This document shows, in pieces, positions 19,831-19,981 of a stretch of 64,000 nucleotides of DNA. The notes beneath the pieces were generated by a model that saw only the letters and a program-made list of their open reading frames with translations, was not told where the DNA came from and searched no databases. The stretch is from the NCBI GenBank assembly GCA_021030905.1, contig JAGFMI010000007.1, forward strand, positions 992,001 to 1,056,000, given 5' to 3'. The translations under genes were made by a program, and so were the position numbers. The stretch is from Pyrenula massariospora. Lineage: Eukaryota > Ascomycota > Eurotiomycetes > Pyrenulales > Pyrenulaceae. Every line of letters begins with the position of its first letter. Positions within the stretch are counted from its first letter, which is position 1.

Positions 19831-19981
19831 TGCGTCGACCGGGAATTGAACCCGGGGCTCATCGATGTAGACTATTCCGTAGGTATACGGGTGACATGCT
19901 TCAATATATAAGTATGTTGTTGTATTCTATCGCATTAAAGTACTTACGCAACGATGAATTTTACCACTAAACCACCAACGC
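19831..19981 (-). tRNA. tRNA-Gly(GCC)-like gene with an 80-nt insertion in the anticodon loop
   Basis: All stems of a fungal tRNA-Gly(GCC) are present: acceptor GCGTTGG/TCGACGC with A73; D-arm GTTT/AAAT; anticodon stem CATCG/CGATG; T-arm CCGGG-TTCAATT-CCCGG. The A box TGGTTTAGTGG and B box GGTTCAATTCC are intact and a T5 terminator follows within about 6 nt. The loop TTGC...CAT is split by 80 nt. If the extra sequence is removed as 19947-19868, between bases 35 and 36, the anticodon is GCC. If it is removed at the normal 37/38 site (19945-19866), the anticodon would read GCG. The insertion begins GTAAGT. Either an unusual intron or an inactivated gene. Confidence 0.75.

Follow-up and report, generated by a model that had tools for sequence, protein, structure and literature searches.

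Candidate spliceosomal-type introns alongside canonical tRNA introns in nuclear tRNA genes of the fungus Pyrenula massariospora

Introns in Genes for tRNAs and Other Structural RNAs

Canonical introns of eukaryotic nuclear tRNA genes lie between positions 37 and 38 and are removed by the Sen endonuclease. One source describes a ruler mechanism, by which the tRNA endonuclease measures from the mature body of the tRNA (PMC4090602), and tRNA splicing is called spliceosome-independent in another (PMC13149111). The first of these also describes tRNA genes of nucleomorphs and of Cyanidioschyzon with several introns per gene at unusual positions. The introns of the Guillardia nucleomorph are 3–24 nt long, and those of Cyanidioschyzon are tied to bulge-helix-bulge (BHB) motifs (PMC4090602). 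Permuted tRNAs are a further variant (PMC3978253). The U6 snRNA of fission yeast, a Pol III transcript, carries an mRNA-type intron that is thought to derive from reverse splicing (PMC10484740). Mobile introns are described in the rDNA of lichens, without assignment to a type (PMC6945747). Among the literature matches listed, which comprised titles and the starts of abstracts with subscription papers mostly outside, no paper dealt with spliceosomal introns in nuclear tRNA genes.

The window analyzed here is a stretch of 64,000 nt from the ascomycete Pyrenula massariospora (assembly GCA_021030905.1, contig JAGFMI010000007.1, positions 992,001–1,056,000). It contains a tRNA-Gly(GCC) gene with 80 additional nucleotides in the anticodon loop. 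The tRNA genes of this fungus resemble each of the described systems in part. As in canonical tRNA genes, a 31-nt intron of the window gene and 29 other introns are placed at 37/38, whereas 19 inserts lie elsewhere and mostly have GT-AG ends, lengths of 46–52 nt, and branch motifs. As in nucleomorphs and Cyanidioschyzon, several introns can occur in one tRNA gene at unusual positions, but here with GT-AG ends, branch motifs, and no excess of BHB pairing in a weak test. As with the U6 intron of fission yeast, mRNA-type introns appear to lie within Pol III genes; there, a single small RNA gene is concerned, whereas here many tRNA genes are. No intron was present in the copy of U6 found in this genome (locus L118, 69–167; C11:686998–687096; 77.5 bits), and the U6 core was uninterrupted in the same genome BLAST that was run with the tRNAs. 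For lichen-forming ascomycetes, Bhattacharya and colleagues have reportedly found spliceosomal introns in the nuclear rRNA genes. These are likewise short, sit in structural RNA genes, and belong to the same broad fungal group, but the rRNA genes are transcribed by Pol I, whereas the genes considered here are Pol III tRNA genes, whose transcripts would often pass through another splicing system as well.

We consider it very probable, from the sequence of this one genome, that nuclear tRNA genes of the fungus hold short U2-type spliceosomal introns besides canonical tRNA introns, and that the window gene is processed by both routes.

The tRNA-Gly(GCC) Gene of the Window

Positions 19,831–19,981 on the minus strand match the tRNA family RF00005 at 42.5 bits, above the cut-off of 29, in an Rfam scan of the window. 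The anticodon loop reads TTGC, 80 nt, CAT. The acceptor stem has seven of seven pairs, two of them G-U, and both the T-stem and the anticodon stem have five of five. The A box (19,964–19,974, minus strand) and the B box (19,842–19,852, minus strand) follow the general consensus of internal Pol III promoters, and a terminator-like T5 run lies at 19,820–19,824 on the same strand. The original prediction of a tRNA-Gly body with 80 extra loop bases, otherwise intact and apparently transcribable, is thus borne out. The broken stems or boxes of a pseudogene are not seen in this gene; the stems are closed, and both boxes are there. Default ARAGORN makes no call at the locus, and with introns permitted it reads an Arg(GCG) gene with an intron of 80 nt. 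A neighboring tRNA-Gly(TCC) gene with an 8-nt canonical intron (18,624–18,702, minus strand), which lies outside the tRNA-Gly(GCC) gene and serves as a comparison, is mis-called as tRNA-Met by the default program. Elsewhere in the window, positions 58,491–60,083 (plus strand) encode a Rit1-type initiator-tRNA phosphoribosyl transferase (Pfam Rit1_C, Init_tRNA_PT).

The suggested genome search for the insert was made with the whole 151-bp gene sequence, and its sole BLAST match in the assembly is its own locus. A mobile copy was rejected on this result. A group I intron was also rejected: such introns have a catalytic core and are usually longer than 200 nt. The insert, at 80 nt altogether, is too short, and it has no Rfam match, as the scan of the window gives only two tRNAs.

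The insert is best read as a 49-nt spliceosomal-type intron, an exon of two bases, and a 31-nt ordinary tRNA intron. On the minus strand, exon 1 (19,948–19,981; positions 1–35, 34 nt) corresponds to an exact BLAST piece, 1–34 of the spliced query. The putative spliceosomal intron follows at 35/36 (19,899–19,947), with the form GTAAGT...CTTAT...AAG. Its GTAAGT 5' site comes directly after C35. The original prediction had remarked on this opening, and the remark proved to be the key to the two-intron reading. In the branch motif CTTAT, which is weaker than YTRAY, the A lies at a distance of 10 nt from the 3' end. The 3' end, GAAG, is the only AG in the insert that leaves CA, that is, C36 and a purine at 37, at a plausible length of 49 nt. 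The CA itself forms exon 2 (19,897–19,898; positions 36 and 37). What remains is 31 nt (19,866–19,896), which fits a canonical-type intron at 37/38 in which pairing of U32 with intron base -3 is possible. Exon 3 covers 19,831–19,865 (positions 38–73). With both introns out, the loop becomes TTGCCAT, and the anticodon is GCC. As had been predicted, only a 35/36 junction gives this anticodon back. Removal of 80 nt at the canonical place would leave G36 and T37.

The boundary between exon 2 and the second intron is ambiguous by 2 nt because the 31-nt intron likewise ends in CA. In 200,000 mononucleotide shuffles of the insert, the combination of GT[AG], AG/CA at 47–52 nt, and YTNAY at 9–12 nt arose 16 times, or 613 times in 200,000 when GTAAGT was kept, the limits having been drawn from an insert set that contains the window gene itself. 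Structure alone does not fix the 3' splice site of this gene, with 118 tied solutions, and the fold of the precursor minus the 49-nt intron is unremarkable (z -1.58). The 5' site, length, and branch distance of the 49-nt intron agree with those of inserts in other tRNA genes of the genome.

In the proposed pathway, Pol III would make a precursor with all 151 nt, as suggested by the two internal boxes and the run of T. The spliceosome would take out the 49-nt GTAAGT...AAG intron at 35/36 and thereby restore the anticodon arm, after which the 31-nt intron at 37/38 would be removed by the tRNA splicing endonuclease and a ligase to give tRNA-Gly(GCC). Wherever the anticodon arm is split by an insert, the spliceosome presumably has to act first, since the ruler of the endonuclease starts from the mature body. 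None of the 19 inserts in the genome interrupts an A or B box, which reflects, at least in part, searches that required intact boxes.

Inserts in Nuclear tRNA Genes across the Genome

The assembly comprises 37.8 Mb in 33 contigs. Its tRNA loci were gathered by an Rfam tRNA search, pattern searches, and small stretches, and the decoded nuclear set of 38 genes is partial. The Rfam search gave 41 matches, mitochondrial ones included, among 63 scored of 1116 candidates. The main pattern search gave 130 matches, about 100 of which were shown, none of these from contigs C30–C33; ARAGORN was run on 30 loci and 11 further stretches, and others were read by eye. The 24 places of another search all went through ARAGORN, which gave two tRNAs, and 15 of them through Rfam, which gave none above the cut-off. 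In further pattern searches, 2 of 4, 4 of 20, and 0 of 8 places were fetched; some of the 20 were already known, and the 8-place search yielded no gene. Loci that did not decode were excluded from the 38. In these partial searches, no nuclear genes for Asn, Asp, His, Phe, Pro, Trp, Tyr, or elongator Met were found. The nuclear genes found are nearly single-copy and dispersed, and sister genes are strongly diverged, as in the two Gly(GCC) and the two Thr(AGT) genes. The contigs C25 and C26 contain mitochondrial-looking tRNA clusters, and C26 has the same tRNAs in two opposite copies, as though the contig were folded back on itself.

Five of the 38 genes are intronless, 17 have a canonical 37/38 intron only, and 16 (about 40%) hold a further insert. 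These 16 were read by hand, with isotypes assigned partly by their likeness to yeast tRNAs. They contain 19 inserts, which are spread over the D, anticodon, variable, T, and acceptor arms; as read, none lies at 37/38. In the following, slashes within sequences mark the junctions. Position 23/24 is interrupted in Ser(TGA) and, within the D-stem, in Ser(CGA) (TTAAG/GTATGG...CTAAC...CCAG/GCGAC), and 25/26 in Ile(AAT) (AACGC/GTGAGC...ACTAAC...AAAG/ATCGTA). Leu(AAG) has inserts at 26/27 and 69/70 and thus three introns in all, one of them within the acceptor stem. Arg(ACG) is interrupted at 29/30, Thr(AGT)_2 (locus L088) at 30/31, and Gln(TTG)_2 and Gln(CTG)_2 at 31/32, the latter as TTCGGA/GTAAGA...TACTAAC...ACAG/TTCTGA. 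Inserts at 33/34 are found in Leu(CAA), in Leu(TAA)_2 with GC..AG ends, and in Lys(CTT) (L071/L093) with GT..TG ends, and the 49-nt segment of the window gene is at 35/36. Ser(AGA)_2 carries one insert in the variable arm, CTCTTCGG/GTAAGC...CTAAT...GTAG/AGGC, and another at 70/71. Excision from the variable arm gives back the CTCTTCGGAGGCG of the sister gene L025. Gln(TTG)_1 has a 52-nt insert at 63/64 (GTATGC...CTGAT...GAAG), Arg(CCG)_1 and Arg(CCG)_2 each have one at 69/70, and Lys(CTT) has a second at 71/72.

A mixture of two organisms in the assembly was rejected, as insert-bearing and insert-free tRNA genes share the contigs C3, C4, C27, C29, C30, C31, and C32. Several further loci are tRNA-like. 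At L078 (106–216, minus strand), L081 (214–327, plus strand), and L085 (153–305, minus strand), the acceptor and T stems close and both Pol III boxes are present, and these loci could not be decoded as tRNAs. L078 and L081 have in common CTTGG..CCAAG and the CCCTTCGGGG arrangement and may represent another Pol III RNA. L114 (C12:117024, plus strand) and L117 (C27:1962903, plus strand) are tRNA-like 5' halves with good A boxes, one of them an exact 19-base match. No 3' half was recognized within about 220 nt of either, and they possibly hold longer introns.

Splice Signals of the Inserts

The ends of the inserts are GT..AG in 17 of 19 cases, with one GC..AG and one GT..TG. Lengths range from 46 to 75 nt, and 16 of the 19 fall within 46–52 nt. 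A YTRAY motif with its A 9–12 nt before the 3' end is present in 14 of 19 inserts, versus a mean of 1.37 and a maximum of 6 in 2000 shuffles; some 3' ends were picked with splice signals in view, which makes the signal figures somewhat favorable. The five inserts that lack it at this distance are those of the window gene (CTTAT at 10), both Arg(CCG) genes (CTAAC at 16), Ser(AGA)_2 70/71 (TTGAT at 22), and Leu(AAG) 26/27, in which YTNAY was looked for at 5–30 nt and none was found. As a control, GT-AG ends occur in none of the 30 canonical introns of the genome, which are 7–32 nt long and have the 32:-3 pair in 20 cases.

Five mRNA introns of the window offer a further comparison. One was placed via a gap against homologous proteins, and the other four by eye, guided by homologues and by a reading frame that stays open across the join. 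Their 5' sites (GTACGT, GTAAGT, GTAAGC, GTGAGC, and GTAAGA) and branch motifs (CTCAC, TTGAC, CTGAT, CTAAC, and CTAAC) are similar to those of the inserts. In this small sample (n = 5), they are longer, at 48–84 nt with a median above that of the inserts (46–75 nt), and have branch distances of 10–22 nt. GT-AG ends, a branch motif, and mRNA-like lengths and 5' sites, as expected of U2-type introns, are all found among the inserts and argue for their membership in that class. Among the protein-coding genes of the window, those for an ABC transporter and a P450 encode products with 86% and 85% identity, respectively, to proteins of Pyrenula ochraceoflavens, which points to a Pyrenula-like fungus (Pyrenulales, Eurotiomycetes). 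The ABC transporter is also 92% identical to an unnamed protein, and the P450 comparison helped to place mRNA introns.

Our confidence is high for the genome-wide pattern of spliceosomal-type inserts. Less certain are the individual 3' ends within the anticodon loop, the 33/34 inserts of Lys(CTT) and Leu(TAA)_2, and those inserts of Arg(CCG), Ser(AGA)_2, and Lys(CTT) that lie in the acceptor arm. The 33/34 insert of Lys(CTT) ends in TTTG where AG would be expected, although its branch distance and length fit; this end may be a 3' site of a rare kind, or else an error or a misreading.

Structure of the Restored tRNAs

An excision search guided by structure only and blind to splice signals was run on 12 genes. 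A GT-AG excision was among the printed best ties in seven of them, namely two Gln genes, Arg(ACG), Thr, Ile, Ser(TGA), and Ser(CGA). More than 100 ties arose in Gly, Lys(CTT), and Leu(TAA)_2, in which the insert lies inside the loop, and Leu(CAA) and Ser(AGA)_2 scored higher with non-GT-AG solutions. Several acceptor or T stems are open in the genomic sequence and are closed by downstream GT-AG excisions. In Gln(TTG)_1, the 52-nt excision lifts the closing score from -6 to 23 (three ties, one of them GT-AG). A GT-AG excision is also among the best in Arg(CCG)_2 (35 ties), Leu(AAG) (8 ties), and Lys(CTT) (25 ties; one base off the printed tie). It scores 22 against a best of 23 in Arg(CCG)_1 and at Ser(AGA)_2 70/71. 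Three of the four comparison genes, namely Gln(TTG)_2, Arg(TCT)_2, and that of the window, showed no gain. The fourth, Lys(TTT), was improved by an unrelated 85-nt non-GT-AG excision. Structure alone can therefore mislead, since this gain came from a meaningless excision.

After removal of all recognized introns, ARAGORN reads all 16 genes as intronless tRNAs with anticodons that fit the isotype of the body, a result that is partly circular for inserts inside the anticodon loop, where the restored anticodon depends on the cut chosen. One acceptor mismatch is left in Gln(TTG)_2 after splicing. When 13 of the 16 mature sequences were compared with the genome by BLAST, each matched only its own interrupted gene, in two pieces (26 in total). 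No uninterrupted close copy of these 13 was found in the genome by BLAST, diverged copies being beyond its reach.

Alternative Readings of the Inserts

It is unlikely that all 80 nt form one tRNA-type intron at the non-standard place 35/36 that is removed by the tRNA splicing endonuclease, perhaps at a BHB as in archaea or red algae. Such noncanonical introns do occur in nucleomorphs and Cyanidioschyzon (PMC4090602). A single excision would yield an identical tRNA because the 31-nt intron likewise ends in CA; this CA directly precedes T38, so that one cut also gives GCC, and the BLAST piece of exon 3 (19,831–19,867) extends over it. Against this reading stand above all the ends of such an intron, GT..TA, which disregard the AG, the branch motif, and the genome-wide length, and given the genome-wide pattern we regard it as less likely than two introns. 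BHB introns are not known to need GT-AG or a branch site. The BHB check proposed originally was made in a strict form and at the junction of the 49-nt intron. It found 0 of 4 central-helix pairs at 35/36 in the window gene; in the 14 of 19 inserts tested, three pairs occurred in 4 and four pairs in none, and this is a weak test, since the canonical introns of this genome reach at least three pairs in only 9 of 30 and four in 2 of 30. On that weak test, a BHB intron is not favored. The idea of one misplaced tRNA intron has lost ground to the two-intron reading, in which a spliceosomal-type intron is followed by an ordinary one of tRNA genes, as part of a pattern that recurs across the genome.

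It is very unlikely that the interrupted genes are pseudogenes, disrupted by intron-like insertions and left unprocessed. The genome does contain a second tRNA-Gly(GCC) gene (L035, C12:101294–101387, minus strand). Its body is diverged and contains a canonical 23-nt intron, and in a partial search it is the one other such gene rather than one of many intact copies, the finding that was to have marked the window gene as dead. A second gene is also known for six insert-bearing isoacceptors, five of these second genes being insert-free, and the insert-free Arg(TCT)_2 has an imperfect T stem. Yet interrupted stems close once the inserts are removed, and 16 of 16 genes then give ordinary tRNAs with anticodons that fit their bodies, which speaks against the earlier suggestion of a dead gene. 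In the partial inventory, seven isoacceptors, Arg(ACG), Ile(AAT), Leu(AAG), Leu(CAA), Lys(CTT), Ser(CGA), and Ser(TGA), are known only from interrupted versions, with no other close copy by BLAST, although diverged ones are possible. In an alignment of the two Gln 31/32 introns, moreover, the 5' site, the branch, and the 3' site are kept, while much of the remainder differs.

Canonical splicing of the whole 80 nt at 37/38, the switched anticodon GCG that had also been suggested and that ARAGORN names in its Arg(GCG) call, is hardly credible, as it leaves U37 where the 29 other canonical-intron genes have a purine and disregards GTAAGT.

Implications of Two Proposed Splicing Systems for tRNA Biology

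With spliceosomal-type introns as the preferred reading, it is likely, though less so than their presence itself, that a large share of nuclear tRNAs in this lineage needs two machines in turn, first the spliceosome and afterwards the tRNA endonuclease. Single genes would hold up to three introns, some of them inside an acceptor stem or T-stem, and would have gained the spliceosomal-type ones by reverse splicing into tRNAs. Inserts of this kind explain why genes can be missed by tRNA finders in such genomes. The window gene escaped default ARAGORN, the unspliced Thr(AGT)_2 locus L088 was missed by the Rfam scan, and Leu(AAG) scored 27 bits, below the cut-off. If these readings are true, Pol III transcripts with inner exons down to two bases would be substrates of the spliceosome, and one RNA would be served by two splicing systems. 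The introns would preserve a record of intron gain in RNAs that are short and fixed in structure, and reverse splicing would thereby become testable. If the tRNAs of this fungus need the spliceosome, its translation would depend on the spliceosome directly.
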